Assembly: GCF_019737615.1 (NCBI RefSeq)
Contig: NZ_JAHKKS010000009.1
Coordinates: 62,001 to 126,000, forward strand
Direction of reading: 5' to 3'
Length of the DNA stretch: 64,000 nt
Source: Sphingobium xanthum
GTDB taxonomy: Bacteria > Pseudomonadota > Alphaproteobacteria > Sphingomonadales > Sphingomonadaceae
Below the pieces are notes generated by a model. The model made no database searches. It saw only the letters and a list, made by a program, of their open reading frames with translations, and was not told where the DNA came from. This document shows, piece after piece, positions 21,665-26,957 of the stretch (its first letter is position 1; every line of letters starts with the position of its first letter). The position numbers were made by a program, and so were the translations under genes.

Positions 21665-22459
21665 TCAGTTCACTGGCGCGCGGCGGCGGTAGCTCAGGGC
21701 CTCTGCGACATGGACGCGGCCGACAGTCTCCGCCTCGGCCAGATCGGCGATGGTGCGGGCGACGCGCAGGACGCGGGTGTAGCCGCGGGCACTGAGTTTC
21801 ATGGCGGCGGCGGCCTGGGCGAGGAGATCGCGGCCGGGCGTGTCTGGCGTGGCGATGTCCTCGAGGGCCTTGCCGTCGAGCTCGGCATTGGTGCGCGCGC
21901 CGCCGGTCTCGGGCGCGCGGGCGGTCTGGCGGGCGCGGGCGGCGGCGACGCGGGCGGCGACCTGCGCCGTGCCTTCGCTAGGCGGGGGCAGGACGAGATC
22001 GGCGGCGGTGACGGCGGCGACCTCGACATGGAGATCGATGCGATCGAGCAGCGGCCCGGAAAGCTTGGCCTGATAATCGAGCGCGCAGCGTGGGGCGCGG
22101 GAGCAGGCGAGGCTGGGATCGGCGAGATGGCCGCAGCGGCAGGGGTTCATCGCCGCGACGAGCTGGACGCGGGCCGGGAAAGTCACATGCGCATTGGCAC
22201 GCGCGACGCTGACCTCGCCGGTTTCGAGCGGCTGGCGCAGGCTGTCCAGCACGGCGCGCTGGAACTCGGGCAGCTCGTCGAGGAAGAGCACGCCGAGATG
22301 AGCGAGGCTGACTTCGCCGGGTTTGACCTTGAGGCCGCCGCCGACGAGCGCGGCCATCGAGGCGCTGTGATGCGGGGCGCGATAGGGGCGGGTCTGGCTG
22401 ATCCGGCCGCCCGAGAGCGTGCCCGCGACCGAGGCGACCATCGAGACTTCGAGCGCCTC
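21665..22459 (-). pseudogene. comM: comM, 3' portion, cut by transposon
   Basis: C-terminal 264 residues of ComM/YifB, the Mg-chelatase-like AAA+ helicase that aids branch migration during natural transformation. It includes the Walker B LFLDELPEF, the zinc-type Cys cluster (PCRCGHLADPSLACSRAPRC) and the C-terminal YTRVLRVARTIADL block. Its reading begins at the transposon end: a spurious start codon comes from the inverted repeat. Joined to 26241-26957 after removing the element and one target copy, it gives an in-frame protein of about 503 residues, the normal ComM length. The gene is therefore intact except for the insertion. Confidence 0.95.
22452..22459. repeat. Target-site duplication, left copy
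   Basis: AGCGCCTC lies immediately outside the left inverted repeat and is repeated at 26233-26240 outside the right one. Eight bp is the usual duplication size for the IS1595 family. Confidence 0.95.
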
Positions 22460-22483
22460 CGGCATTATGTAGCAAACGCACCA
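22460..22483. repeat. Left terminal inverted repeat of the IS1595-type element
   Basis: Starts CGGCATTATGTAGCAAACGC and ends CACCA-type. The reverse complement is at 26209-26232 with all 24 positions identical. It overlaps the false start of the comM fragment. Confidence 0.95.
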
Positions 22484-22529
22484 AAGGGGCGCGGCTTAGC
22501 CGCGAAGGCGCGTGATTAGCGCGCTCGCA

Positions 22530-23441
22530 TCAGTCTTGATGCTCGTAGTCGGCATTTTCAACAGCCTTGAGGGTCGTACTCGGCCCGTCTCCGATTTCAC
22601 GGCAGAAGGACGTTCTGCGCACATAGTTTCCACTCGCCTGCCTGTAATCAACCCAGCCCATAATGTAATAGCGAGGACCATAGGAATACCCATCTTGATT
22701 ATTTATCTCGATGAATTCGCGGGCAATGAAGTGGAACTTCATCCAGTCGCCGGAATTCATTTTAGCCCCCCTTGGCCTCACTCTGCTGGATTTAGGTTGC
22801 GCTCTCAGAGGGAGAATGTTCCCGGCGTAGGTTCGATATTTTCCTTCATATGGCGGGATGGCTGGAAGTGGCCCTTTGATGCAATAAATCCAGCACCCAG
22901 CAGCATGAAATATGGCATCGCTCCCGCCAATGTTCGTTGCCGTAAAGCTCCCGTAGATACCTCTCTCACATTGTTTGAAATCGACACGCCTAATAACGAT
23001 TCTCGGGCGGTGCTCGGCCATCAGCGCATCTTGGCCGATCTTGTTGGCCTCCCTCGTAGCTTGGAAGGTTGTGTAAACAAGATAAACGCCGACGACACTC
23101 AAGCACATGCCGATCACAGCGGCGGCGCCCATTATGTAAGCCCAAAGGGCGGATCGTTTTTGAGCTACCAAATCCTGTTCGTCGCGCTCATTTGCGCGGC
23201 GTTCGTGGCTAGCATCGTTCACGCATTGAGCCTGTTGGACAGGGGTCATGCGGACACAGGTCTCGGTTATCTTCTTGTAGGTATCAGCGGAATATTCTGT
23301 AGTCTGATAATCGGCTTGCCGTCGATATTCGGCGGACTCTGAAAGCCCGAAGCCGATGAAGCCAACCGACAGTAGGACAGATATTGCAATGCCCGCTGTC
23401 AGGCCAGGCTTAAGCTGCTTACGCCTATCGCTTCGAGACAT
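22530..23441 (-). CDS. Transposon passenger: hypothetical membrane protein
   Basis: 303 residues. Two membrane helices (about residues 12-32 and 100-123) flank a charged, presumably periplasmic loop with Cys residues and CVNDASHERRANERDEQ. The C-terminal 180 residues, with an immunoglobulin-like strand pattern (RPRIVIRRVDFKQCERGIYG), would be cytosolic or periplasmic. No known domain is recognised. The start overlaps the upstream DUF6471 gene by 43 bp, so the two are co-transcribed. GC content is lower than in the flanking host genes. Carried by the IS1595-type transposon. Confidence 0.75.
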   Translation of the reverse strand: MSRSDRRKQLKPGLTAGIAISVLLSVGFIGFGLSESAEYRRQADYQTTEYSADTYKKITETCVRMTPVQQAQCVNDASHERRANERDEQDLVAQKRSALWAYIMGAAAVIGMCLSVVGVYLVYTTFQATREANKIGQDALMAEHRPRIVIRRVDFKQCERGIYGSFTATNIGGSDAIFHAAGCWIYCIKGPLPAIPPYEGKYRTYAGNILPLRAQPKSSRVRPRGAKMNSGDWMKFHFIAREFIEINNQDGYSYGPRYYIMGWVDYRQASGNYVRRTSFCREIGDGPSTTLKAVENADYEHQD

Positions 23442-23623
23442 TGGATCAAGAATACCGCTGTGAATTTTCCCCGGCTCAGCTTGTTCCTGATATTCGGCTC
23501 AGAGTCCACTACGCCGATAGCAGCGAGCTTATCGACGAGCTGCGCATAGCTCACATTCCGGCGCTTTAGTTCGGCCTTGAGTAGGCCCTTAACGCGGGCC
23601 TCCCATTCGGCATTGTCAGCCAT
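23399..23623 (-). CDS. Transposon passenger: DUF6471 protein
   Basis: 74 residues from ATG 23623; a TTG 6 bp further up is less likely. The sequence has the helix pattern LLKAELKRRNVSYAQLVDKL ... NIRNKLSRGKF ... FLIQCLEAIG, typical of DUF6471 and similar to a small HTH. Possibly a DNA-binding regulator of the element. It overlaps the start of the membrane-protein gene and is divergent from the transposase, with a dyad in the gap. Confidence 0.75.
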   Translation of the reverse strand: MADNAEWEARVKGLLKAELKRRNVSYAQLVDKLAAIGVVDSEPNIRNKLSRGKFTAVFLIQCLEAIGVSSLSLA

Positions 23624-23722
23624 TCCCAAACGCTCCGTACAACAGGAAGCCGATGACGGCGTATCCGGCTACGGCGAACGCTACGGTTCTAATTTGCCTG
23701 ACTGTCGGCATGTTGCATCCTC

Positions 23723-23788
23723 TATGATGTTAATGTCATCATATTCGATACGAATGCCATTGACAACAGTGCAGATATGTCATTATAT
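23723..23788 (+). promoter_or_regulatory. Transposase promoter with adjacent dyad
   Basis: TTGACA (23760-23765) and TTATAT (23783-23788) at 17-bp spacing make a near-consensus promoter for the transposase at 23812. A perfect 7-bp dyad, TATGATG (23723-23729) and CATCATA (23737-23743), lies upstream toward the DUF6471 gene and is a candidate operator for that protein. Confidence 0.6.
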
Positions 23789-23811
23789 GCGATGCATAGG
23801 CACCGCAAACG

Positions 23812-24771
23812 ATGGCGCAACACTTCCTCCTATCGGCTAAAGCCCGCACGATCAGCCTCAAGGCTGTTTTCAGCATGGGCGAAGACAAGGCCTACGAGAC
23901 GTTCCGCGCCATGCGTTGGCCCGAGACGGACGGCGAGGCTGTGTGCCCGCGCTGTGGCTGCGTCGAGAGCTACGACATTCCCACGCGCCGCAAGTTCAAG
24001 TGCGTTGCCTGCCATCACCAGTTCTCGGTGACGAGCGGCACGATCTTCGCCTCGCGCAAGATGAGCTTCACGGACCTTCTCGCCGCTATCGTGATCTTCG
24101 TGAACGGCGCGAAGGGCGTTGCCGCGCTTCAACTGAGCCGCGATCTCGCTGTCCAGTACAAGACGGCCTTCGTTCTCACGCACAAGCTGCGCGAGGCGAT
24201 GGCGCGCGAGCAAATGGGCCGCACGCTCAACAACACGGTCGAGATCGACGGCGCATATTTTGGCGGTTACGCCAAGCCGGAAAACCGCAAGGAAGATCGC
24301 AAGGACCGTCGTCTCTCAGAGAACCGCACCGGCAAGCGCCAGTGCGTCGTCATCATGCGCGAGCGCGGCGGCAAGTCGCTTTCGTTCATCGTGCGCAACG
24401 AAGGCGACGCCGTCCCCTATGTCCGCGATCATGTCGGCACGCTCGCTACGATCCACGCCGACGAAGGCACGGGCTGGGATGCGCTGCATGCCGGTTGGGA
24501 TGCGAAGCGCGTCAATCACTCGGTTGCGTTTTCTGACGAGGGCGCCTGCACCAACCAGGCGGAAAGCTACTTCTCGCGCCTGCGCCGCATGGAAGTCGGC
24601 ACGCATCATCATATCGCTGGCCCGTATCTCGGCCAGTATGCCCGTGAGGCTTCGTGGCGCGAAGATAACCGCCGCGTCGATAACGGTATGCAGGCTGCGA
24701 TGGTGCTGGATGCCGGTTTGGCGAGCCGCGTTAGCCGGAACTGGAAAGGGTATTGGCAGCGGGCGGCGTGA
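23812..24771 (+). CDS. IS1595-family transposase
   Basis: 319 residues. An N-terminal zinc ribbon has C45/C48 and C64/C67. The DDE triad is visible as D146 (EIDGAYFGG), D217 (IHADEGTGWD) and E251 in TNQAESYFSRLRR, with the Asn three residues before typical of the family. Catalyses cut-and-paste or copy transposition with 8-bp target duplication, which matches the flanks. Looks full-length and active. Confidence 0.96.
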   Translation: MAQHFLLSAKARTISLKAVFSMGEDKAYETFRAMRWPETDGEAVCPRCGCVESYDIPTRRKFKCVACHHQFSVTSGTIFASRKMSFTDLLAAIVIFVNGAKGVAALQLSRDLAVQYKTAFVLTHKLREAMAREQMGRTLNNTVEIDGAYFGGYAKPENRKEDRKDRRLSENRTGKRQCVVIMRERGGKSLSFIVRNEGDAVPYVRDHVGTLATIHADEGTGWDALHAGWDAKRVNHSVAFSDEGACTNQAESYFSRLRRMEVGTHHHIAGPYLGQYAREASWREDNRRVDNGMQAAMVLDAGLASRVSRNWKGYWQRAA

Positions 24772-25111
24772 ACAAACGGCGAATATTAACGATACGGCCG
24801 CTTTAAAGGAAACTGTCAGCTTCAGAATGCCCCATAAATTGCCGCCAGAAGCCCGCTGGAGCGATTTGTGGGGCACGGGGTTGTCCCGACACCATATTGA
24901 CGGCGCCGTCAATTCTGCGCCATCTGAGGGCATTTTGGCTTGTATTGATTTCCGATTCAGCCCATAACGACAAAGACCCGAAGCGCGCTAACGCTCCGGG
25001 CCAATGTTGAACCGCGGGAATAGCGCGGTTGATTTCTAGCTAGGCCACCATTTTGGTGGGTTTAGTGTCGTAAGTCAACCCGCTTCACCGCCCGAATAGG
25101 GCTTTGAATCG
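24772..25111. other. Non-coding stretch between transposase and right-hand passenger genes
   Basis: 340 bp with no convincing gene. It holds a stem-loop at 24977-25000 (CCCGAAGCG pairs with CGCTCCGGG), which may end the transposase message or insulate the next operon. No T-tract is obvious. Confidence 0.5.
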
Positions 25112-25396
25112 ATGACTACTACCTCTCACACAATCCTCTGCGGCTCCTGCAAGTGCGCGGTGCAGAGCGTTCCCAATCCGAAAGCTCACGATAAGGTCAC
25201 CTGTCCTAGGTGCAACCGTAGCGACCGCTTCGATGCAGTCATGCGGGTCGTCAAGGAGCACGTCACCCACAGCACGGCACGCGCTCTCCACGAAGGCATG
25301 GCCAAGGCCGTGCGTGGCAGCAAGTTCCTCAAGCTGACGTCTAACGGCCCGGGCTATCGCTCGTTCCGGTGGATCGCCAGCGGTTATGGGAGTTAA
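25112..25396 (+). CDS. Transposon passenger: zinc-ribbon hypothetical protein
   Basis: 94 residues with two CxxC pairs near the N-terminus (ILCGSCKC and VTCPRC, about residues 10-35), suggesting a zinc ribbon. A helical segment (VKEHVTHSTARALHEGMAKA) and the ending RSFRWIASGYGS follow. It lies 4 bp before the Cas2-like gene. A longer minus-strand frame over the same region is rejected as a shadow. Role unknown; possibly a DNA or RNA binder acting with its neighbour. Confidence 0.65.
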   Translation: MTTTSHTILCGSCKCAVQSVPNPKAHDKVTCPRCNRSDRFDAVMRVVKEHVTHSTARALHEGMAKAVRGSKFLKLTSNGPGYRSFRWIASGYGS

Positions 25397-25400
25397 GGAC

Positions 25401-25694
25401 ATGGCGCAGTTCCTCATCACCTACGACAACAAGCCCCCGCGTGACTACCGGCGCCTATATCAACTCATGGCGGGCTGGAAGGCCGTGCGTATGGCTGACT
25501 CGGTTTGGCTGGCAAATTTAGTCGGCCCGGCTCCAGTCGTTCGCGACGTTGTCCAAAATACTCTGCAGCGAAACGATAACGTGGCCGTCGTCGAATTGAA
25601 GCAGGGCGCGGACTGGGCAGTCAGCAATGCAACCCCGGTTGCAGCACGTATATGGCTGTCGAGTTACGTAACGCCAAGCCAAGCAGCCGCCTAA
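25401..25694 (+). CDS. Transposon passenger: Cas2-like small protein
   Basis: 97 residues from ATG 25401 (MAQFLITYD...). The order of elements resembles the Cas2/VapD-type ferredoxin fold: a strand with YD (the metal-binding Asp position in Cas2), a helix, SVWLAN, an alpha helix VRDVVQNTLQRND, and a final strand VAVVELK. No CRISPR array or cas1 is visible in the window. The likeness is by fold pattern only. It could be a nuclease, a toxin or a scaffold without activity. Confidence 0.6.
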   Translation: MAQFLITYDNKPPRDYRRLYQLMAGWKAVRMADSVWLANLVGPAPVVRDVVQNTLQRNDNVAVVELKQGADWAVSNATPVAARIWLSSYVTPSQAAA

Positions 25695-25732
25695 CCACGG
25701 GGCCGCATTGAGCGGCCCCGTGCACTTCCCGA

Positions 25733-26164
25733 TCATCGCACAACCTCCCACTGCAACCACAGCCCGGTGTCTTCCACAGACCGCACCAGCCCCTTATCCC
25801 GCTTGTCTCGCAGCACATGCCCGACACGGCGCGTCATCACGTCTAGAATGCCCTTGTCATGCTCTAGGCCGCGTTGCTGGACGATCATGGCGGCAATCTC
25901 GCGTGTGGACAGTGGACCCTTGGCAACGCGCAGGATGGACAGCACAGCGCGGCTCATCTCCCCTCGCTTGCTCCATGACTTGGGCGGCATGAACACCTTG
26001 GGCAAGATGCTCTCCTGCACGAAGTCGGGCGCGAACAGCCGTATCGTGGCGTCCACATGCTCTAGGTCTGTGCTGAGTTGCTGTAGCCGCGCATGGCAGC
26101 GGGCTATCTCGTCGGTCATGTCGGCGCGCTTCCGTTTGAGCGCTTCAAGGGCGTAGTCAGTCAT
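25733..26164 (-). CDS. Transposon passenger: coiled-coil plus winged-helix protein
   Basis: 143 residues. The N-terminal 45 are Lys/Glu/Arg-rich with heptad spacing (ALKRKRADMTDEIARCHARL), a likely coiled coil. The C-terminal half (SRAVLSILRVAKGPLSTREI ... DVMTRRVGHVLRDK) has a winged-helix pattern. Possibly a regulator of the element. It is convergent with the Cas2-like gene and is the last gene before the right inverted repeat. Confidence 0.7.
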   Translation of the reverse strand: MTDYALEALKRKRADMTDEIARCHARLQQLSTDLEHVDATIRLFAPDFVQESILPKVFMPPKSWSKRGEMSRAVLSILRVAKGPLSTREIAAMIVQQRGLEHDKGILDVMTRRVGHVLRDKRDKGLVRSVEDTGLWLQWEVVR

Positions 26165-26208
26165 TGCGGGAATCTAGCGGATTTGCTAGGTTACGGGCAG
26201 TTAGAGGC

Positions 26209-26232
26209 TGGTGCGTTTGCTACATAATGCCG
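26209..26232. repeat. Right terminal inverted repeat of the IS1595-type element
   Basis: The last 24 bp of the element, the exact reverse complement of 22460-22483. Confidence 0.95.
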
Positions 26233-26240
26233 AGCGCCTC
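26233..26240. repeat. Target-site duplication, right copy
   Basis: AGCGCCTC, identical to 22452-22459. It belongs to comM; one copy completes the reading frame. Confidence 0.95.
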
Positions 26241-26957
26241 GGCGGGCGTCAGCGGCGGGAGAATACCGGGCAGGCAGCTGGCCATCAGCGACTTGCCGGC
26301 GCCGGGAGGCCCGGCCATCAGCAGATTGTGCCCGCCAGCCGCCGCAATCTCCAGCGCGCGCTTGGCGGTCTCCTGTCCTTTGACCTGGCGCAGATCGGGA
26401 CCGATCTGCACGGGCTCGGCCTCGCCGGCCTGCGGGCGCGGGAGGATGTTGCTGCCCTTCAGATGATTGATGAGGCTAAGCAGATCAGGCGCGGCGAGGA
26501 CGCCTTCGGAGCCTGCCCAGGCGGCTTCGGCGCCCTGCGCGGCCGGGCAGATCAGGGTAAGGTTTTGCTGGGTGGCGTGAAGGGCTGCGAGCAGCACGCC
26601 GGGGATGGGCGCGATGCGCCCGTCGAGGCCGAGCTCGCCGACGACGAGATGTTCGGCGAGGTCTTCCGCATCGACCACGCCCATCGCGGCGAGCAGCGCC
26701 AGCGCGATCGGGAGATCATAATGCGAGCCTTCCTTGGGCAGGTCGGCCGGCGAGAGATTGACGGTGATGCGCTTGGGCGGGAGCGAGAGGCCGATCGCGG
26801 CGATGGCATTGCGCACGCGCTCGCGGGATTCGGCGACCGCCTTGTCGGCGAGACCGACGACGATGAAGTTTGGCAGACCGGAGACGAGGCGGCATTGCAC
26901 TTCGACCGGGCGGGCTTCGAGGCCGAGAAAGGCGGTTGTCGCGACGGTCCCGATCAC
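26241..26957 (-). pseudogene. comM: comM, 5' portion, cut by transposon
   Basis: N-terminal 239 residues of ComM from ATG 26957. The ChlI-like N-domain (VQCRLVSGLPNFIVVGLADK) and the Walker A MAGPPGAGKS (about residue 214) are present. Translation would run past the break into the inverted repeat and stop at once, leaving an ATPase without Walker B. Together with 21665-22459 it makes the whole protein. Confidence 0.95.

Follow-up and report, generated by a model that had tools for sequence, protein, structure and literature searches.

In a 64,000-nucleotide stretch of the Sphingobium xanthum genome (contig NZ_JAHKKS010000009.1, positions 62,001 to 126,000; hereafter the window, meaning the whole stretch that was analysed), the gene comM is split by a 3,773-bp transposon of the IS1595 family. 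Beyond what an initial annotation of this DNA had described, sequence comparison shows that related elements return to exactly this position, and that the choice of site goes with one of the element's own genes. This gene, p143 (25733..26164, minus strand; 143 amino acids), lies beside the right end of the element, reads inward, and is proposed here to encode a target selector. On evidence that is comparative throughout, we put the probability at roughly 0.84 that this IS1595-family transposon carries a modular protein target selector, with p143 picking the site.

A complete IS1595-family element in comM

Terminal inverted repeats and an 8-bp target duplication are the norm for the IS1595 family, and the window element has both. 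Its 24-bp ends match each other perfectly (left, 22460..22483, plus strand; right, 26209..26232, minus strand) and are flanked by two copies of the target-site duplication AGCGCCTC (22452..22459 and 26233..26240), which reads GAGGCGCT on the sense strand of comM and falls in codons E-A-L. The 319-residue DDE transposase with its zinc ribbon (23812..24771, plus strand) matches DDE_Tnp_IS1595 at 125.7 bits (cut-off 27), Zn_ribbon_IS1595 at 52.1 bits (cut-off 25.4) and the NCBIfam model transpos_IS1595 at 142.7 bits (cut-off 75). Given these scores above the curated cut-offs, the perfect ends and the duplication, the initial annotation was right to call the element complete. None of its six open reading frames (ORFs) matches a recombinase family in Pfam or a TnsA, TnsB, TnsC or TniQ family, the latter in agreement with the earlier remark that the element belongs to a family different from that of the AbaR islands.

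The element separates a C-terminal part of comM (21665..22465, minus strand; Mg_chelatase and Mg_chelatase_C), the first residues of which read into the element, from an N-terminal part (26220..26957, minus strand; ChlI and the start of Mg_chelatase), the last residues of which do so from the other side. Joining the flanks once over the duplication yields 504 codons with one stop, or 503 residues, just as expected from the earlier proposal that removal of the element and one duplication restores an in-frame gene. That proposal had also called for a search for an empty comM in relatives, and the gene indeed runs uninterrupted through the insertion site in 9 of 12 relatives of the same genus. 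In one of the three others, comM is interrupted by the same kind of element, with the same left end and the same octamer (L117); an 87-residue fragment of its transposase is 100% identical to that of an element in Sphingobium lactosutens (L013). The remaining two have comM broken elsewhere, one by sequence that appears phage-like by eye and one by sequence of no assigned kind (L125 in G399 and L127 in G397).

The element is present as a single copy in its own genome, where the end sequence, allowing at most three mismatches, occurs at the element's two ends alone. Across the family, matching ends were found in 40 genomes, most of which have at most one pair. Identical 24-bp ends are carried by elements of Sphingopyxis, Croceicoccus and Croceibacterium (L010, L016 and L038). 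Because the ends are thus conserved across genera, their perfection says little about the age of the insertion, and the earlier argument from perfect ends to recent movement is weak.

Related elements recur at exact sites

Relatives were gathered by transposase similarity alone, which gave 145 stretches and 118 relatives, the best 80 of which were kept. At 69 of these 80 loci there is at least one pair of ends with identical 8-bp flanks, and two loci hold two elements; with the window, this makes 72 elements. The 11 loci lacking such a pair (L023, L026, L036, L039, L044, L047, L064, L065, L068, L071 and L075) were left out.

Almost a third of the elements (23 of 72) reside in comM, at two exact positions. 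Site A, the site used in the window, spans codons EAL in the stretch that separates the Walker A and Walker B motifs and is occupied by 18 elements, and site B, spanning codons EFQ just after the DELP of Walker B, by five. Both orientations occur at a single octamer, with 8 and 10 elements at site A and 3 and 2 at site B. The site-A octamers include synonymous variants such as GAGGCGCT, GAAGCACT and GAGGCCTT, and one that encodes another residue, GAGATGCT. Besides comM, the recurrent targets include five positions in genes for GT2 glycosyltransferases (GT2 domains were found with Pfam in 5 of 7 scanned pieces of these loci, the others being assigned by similarity), tRNA-Gln at its 3′ end (two loci), and a REP-like repeat together with other sites, mostly in Rhodobacteraceae. 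Target groups other than comM, tRNA and GT2 were set by eye from the flanks. At each of two loci from hosts of different genera (L060 and L076), GT2 sequence holds a pair of elements that differ in p143 type and lie within a few hundred bases of one another. In a separate pair of genomes (L216 and L217 in G039, and G617), comM is split near Walker A, with the pieces on different contigs and overlapping by about a dozen residues, as if another integrating element had used that site.

Three genes form the backbone of the 72 elements, the others being cargo or variable: the transposase (72, the loci having been fetched by it), a 76-residue DUF6471 protein (71; in the window 23399..23629, minus strand, 108 bits against a cut-off of 26.8) and the ORF at the right end (72). 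The last of these, typically of about 140 residues, forms one linked cluster with p143, two members of which are truncated, at 72 and 65 residues. With phmmer, 55 of the 72 elements matched the window p143 directly. The window protein has no Pfam match above cut-off, and none to E 0.01 in NCBIfam or PHROGs. Since the differences between p143 genes fall mostly at third codon positions in all nine pairs compared, p143 evolves as a coding gene.

The target is tracked by p143 and not by the transposase

Tracking was assessed with the 57 elements that share 13 exact targets, the 15 elements with a unique target being left out. The nearest p143 shares the exact target in 57 of 57 cases, as opposed to 21 of 57 for the nearest transposase, 16 of 56 for the nearest DUF6471 protein and 4 of 29 for the nearest left ORF (the longest minus-strand ORF on the left); 2,000 label shuffles gave at most 13 matches. 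With a first target grouping, in which two GT2 gene positions were merged, the left ORF shared the target in 5 of 29 cases and the 50 bp inside the left end in 10 of 57, while those inside the right end tracked it weakly (24 of 57). Neither DUF6471 nor the left ORF nor the terminal sequences were retained as candidate selectors, their tracking being weak or absent.

Two further measures agree. For pairs of sphingomonad elements with the same or different targets (157 and 438 pairs), the area under the receiver operating characteristic curve (AUC) is 0.998 for p143 and 0.581 for the transposase. On trees, the 13 targets require 12 changes with p143, which is the minimum, 23 with the transposase and 29 with DUF6471, and shuffled labels (20 shuffles each) require 31-39. 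Within p143, the signal is strongest in the winged helix (AUC 0.999) and in the linker that precedes it (0.997), followed by the N-terminal helix (0.956); these values by part were obtained with the first target grouping.

Individual pairs of elements illustrate how the two genes part company. Between the left end and the end of the transposase gene, the DNA of L010 and that of L011 share about 93-94% identity, and thereafter the two match in the last 35 bp alone; their p143 genes differ, as do their targets. Their transposases are 97.8% identical, and those of another pair at different sites (L006 and L037) are 95.3% identical, from which it follows that the transposase alone cannot set the site. 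Moreover, each of the two comM sites has its own p143 type, so that the link is to the site and not to the gene. The recurrence of sites, the link between p143 and target, and the independent change of p143 and transposase are thus all apparent from the sequences themselves. Six loci (L051, L066, L077, L078, L193 and L197) share one p143 type and have elements at unlike sites, possibly reflecting a relaxed selector.

These same comparisons bear on the most serious alternative, namely that p143 recognises the site for target immunity, or for regulation of the target region, while something else selects it. The low number of copies per genome would be in keeping with such a role, and an immunity factor would likewise need to match the site. 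We nevertheless regard this explanation as improbable, because near-identical transposases are found at different sites and no other backbone gene tracks the target.

p143 occurs with a divergent transposase

The type of p143 associated with comM site B is not confined to one kind of element. A 16-kb IS1595-type element in site B (L285, the same locus as L166) carries a comM-B-type p143 together with a transposase of 47.8% identity, its own, different inverted ends, and the duplication GAATTCCA. In this locus and in another at site B (L165, the sequence of which begins at the contig start, where the element is cut), the neighbours of p143 are two ParB-like genes and the gene for a large serine recombinase. 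The recombinase was considered as a partner of p143 and rejected, since the 16-kb element has its own IS1595-type transposase, ends and duplication, making the recombinase cargo there. At 31 other loci with recombinase and ParB genes, no p143 match above 29 bits and no comM match was found, a few of these stretches being short at contig ends. The cargo of the 16-kb element includes this serine recombinase, 70.6% identical to that of the second locus, and large ORFs that by eye resemble type I restriction-modification genes.

At the other extreme of size, inverted repeats about 1.7 kb apart on the Skermanella plasmid pSR-1 enclose, according to the annotation, a transposase gene and a p143-like gene alone, the product of the latter having 36.8% identity; DUF2254 is annotated on both sides of this element. 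Such an arrangement suggests that two genes may suffice.

A second alternative is that the association arose through linkage, with one ancient insertion per site, later exchange of the transposase half by recombination, and p143 remaining with the flank. The location of p143 at the end of the element, adjoining the target, fits such a history, and yet p143 faces either half of comM owing to the two orientations, and the comM-B-type p143 also accompanies a divergent transposase with divergent ends. The target is, besides, followed weakly by the 50 bp within the right end, and not by those within the left end or by the left ORF. We consider this history very unlikely. Less credible still is a guide RNA, by which a non-coding RNA of the element would pair with the target as in IS110/IS1111: the targets are indeed exact and different between close relatives, but the longest word shared by element and target averages 9.14 bases (largest 11) as compared with 9.07 for elements with other targets, and p143 evolves as a coding gene. 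With no excess match between an element and its own target, this candidate was rejected, with the proviso that short or imperfect guides could escape the comparison. That comM is a tolerant, accessible hot spot requiring no selector, as its interruption in 3 of 12 same-genus relatives and its use by other elements (PMC10293859) might suggest, is equally improbable, since the insertions there are confined to two exact octamers and each octamer goes with a distinct p143 type.

Predicted structure of p143 and a proposed mechanism

An AlphaFold2 model of p143, built with 52 sequences, has a mean predicted local distance difference test score of 88.4 and a predicted template modelling score of 0.57, and consists of one helix (residues 2-44) and a winged-helix-like part (residues 69-141). 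The best 50 matches of a Foldseek comparison with the PDB are mostly DNA-binding regulators, for example Fur, PerR, ZitR and MarR, with E values from 1.1e-3 to 2.5e-2; such regulators are known as winged-helix proteins. Thus, p143 is predicted to be a small winged-helix-like protein, and its long helix in the model suggests a dimer.

Returning to p143 as the selector, we propose that the DDE transposase would cut and join DNA with an 8-bp stagger, while p143 would choose the insertion site, probably dimerising through its long helix, binding target DNA by its winged helix and bringing in the transposase. Whereas the fold is predicted, the DNA binding, the contact with the transposase and the dimerisation are inferred. 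The window p143 would represent the type for comM site A, and targets would change through exchange of the p143 gene with the transposase kept. The octamer is exact but the orientation is free, which suggests that the selector positions the transposase on the target without determining which end goes where. It is likely that these elements constitute a two-gene, protein-guided transposon found across Alphaproteobacteria, composed of a winged-helix selector, some 140 residues long, and a transposase of the IS1595 family. In such a system selectors would be swapped like cassettes, and comM would be the target of two selector types, one of which aims at the Walker B region also hit by the unrelated TnsF.

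As for the host, a gene of the ComEC type is present in the same genome. The break in comM would be expected to abolish ComM function and lower natural transformation in this strain, and the element would thereby be protected from being recombined out.

Prediction of targets in newly searched genomes

Searches for p143 gave a match in 23 of 396 genomes of the order, with the window p143 as query, and in 23 of 385 genomes of the class, with an alignment as query. The two collections overlap, and duplicates were removed by identity; once the window's own locus, one repeat and eight loci already present in the training set had been taken out, 39 new loci remained (14 and 25). A prediction was scored for the 20 loci in which the nearest training p143 reached at least 114 bits and had a named target. 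The other 19 comprise 18 loci below this threshold and one (L193) whose nearest relative has no named target. The threshold itself derives from the first grouping, in which the largest score between sphingomonad elements with different targets was 113; with exact sites the maximum is 147.

In 11 of the 20 cases the target gene or repeat was the one predicted by p143, and in 10 of them the exact site was as well. The latter include three loci at comM site A (L137/L162, L140/L163 and L179/L212), four at site B (L142/L164, L143/L165, L151/L166 and L181/L213), and one each at the REP-like repeat (L156/L168), GT2-4 (L185/L207) and GT2-3 (L189/L214); at L143 and L189 the right flank alone is visible. 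The eleventh lies in the GT2 gene predicted, at site 1a instead of 1b (L146/L167). One locus (L182/L205) was counted neither as a match nor as a miss. Below the threshold, a further two loci (L183 and L186) are also in comM site B.

Several observations count against a simple correspondence between p143 and target. Eight of the 20 predictions missed (L135/L157, L138/L158, L141/L159, L150/L160, L149/L161, L180/L204, L184/L206 and L188/L208). Three of these elements (L157, L158 and L159) lie elsewhere even though their p143 is of the comM-A type and 75-85% identical to training examples; because an open comM frame of 502-513 residues is present elsewhere in each of these genomes, they are real failures of prediction. 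A fourth, with a comM-B-type p143 (L160), lies elsewhere though site B is still there. Conversely, one of the two low-scoring elements in site B (L186) has as its nearest training p143, at 76 bits, one of the comM-A type. Among all 72 elements, the nearest p143 reaches at least 114 bits in 60, of which 54 share a named target and six do not. Finally, the Foldseek matches of p143 are weak, with none below E 1e-3, and so it is the fold class that argues for DNA binding.

The duplications of the three comM-A-type misses match the octamer at 6, 7 and 8 of 8 positions, and these misses could be explained by changed specificity or by a second, relaxed pathway. Two other misses keep the octamer: six of its eight positions agree at L161, and all eight agree with a degenerate form at L188. 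The last of these was counted as a miss as there is no GT2 similarity at the locus, even though the octamer there, CACTTTCG, conforms to those of GT2-3 (CAYTTYCG). At L161 (genome G532), the element has a p143 of the AACAAGTT type and occupies AGCAAGCT, with an apparent empty copy of the usual site roughly 1 kb away.

Relation to known systems

With other IS1595-family elements the window element has in common the transposase domains, zinc ribbon, inverted repeats and 8-bp duplication, to which it adds a gene of the backbone whose sequence follows target sites that are exact and conserved. Text searches of an open-access library listed no paper in which an accessory protein selects the target of an IS1595 element. 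To our knowledge, where bacterial transposons use a protein selector, it either forms part of a multi-gene machine (Tn7-like) or acts with tyrosine recombinases (Tsy). In Tn7, the protein TnsD aims at DNA encoding a conserved protein motif, and this logic of a protein selector acting on conserved-motif DNA is shared by the element described here, which differs from Tn7 in lacking the Tns and TniQ matches noted above and in its free orientation.

TnsD-type logic has been noted for glmS in one report, according to which Tn6022 and Tsy reach the Walker B region of comM through TnsF, a relative of tyrosine recombinases (PMC10293859). Tn6022, AbaR-type and Tsy elements thus likewise employ a dedicated protein for comM, at the region of site B. 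That protein works with TnsABC/TniQ or YRec, whereas p143 is small, winged-helix-like and associated with an IS1595 transposase; nor is a TnsF-type insertion at Walker B the case in the window, where the element is at site A. By analogy, we infer that p143 resembles TnsD or TnsF in logic, with another fold and another transposase, and it would represent another solution to comM targeting in another transposon family. The small IS110/IS1111 elements, which use a seekRNA, also have exact sites that differ between relatives (PMC11187229); the class of transposase differs, and no guide signal was found in the present elements.

If the proposal is correct, a small, swappable selector would give a family of insertion sequences a far simpler means of directing DNA insertion, and the natural pairs of selector and target would provide material from which a recognition rule could be learned. 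The elements also add one more transposon family that repeatedly breaks comM. It has been suggested that other mobile elements could be restricted in their transformation when comM is disrupted (PMC10293859), and conflict between mobile elements and transformation has been put forward as a general idea (PMC4774983). The disabling of transformation by mobile elements thereby becomes testable in environmental Alphaproteobacteria.

Other genes and a further observation

The remaining ORFs of the window element lie to either side of the DUF6471 and transposase genes. On the left is an ORF of 303 residues with no family match (22530..23441, minus strand), which belongs to an ORF cluster present in 36 of 72 elements and does not track the target. 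Two cargo genes follow the transposase. One encodes a small zinc-ribbon-like protein of 94 residues (25112..25396, plus strand) with weak matches alone: below cut-off to DUF5817 (E 9.4e-4) and the ECs_2282 family (E 5.9e-4), and a relationship to PHROG 23920 (phrog_23920, E 1.9e-5). The other is a 102-residue ORF (25386..25694, plus strand) related to PHROG 1090, a family of unknown function (E 6.9e-10). Elsewhere in the collection, two transposon ends face each other with 8 bp between them (L206, 5047-5102), beside sequence resembling the 3′ end of a tRNA, and the reverse complement of these 8 bp flanks the far end.

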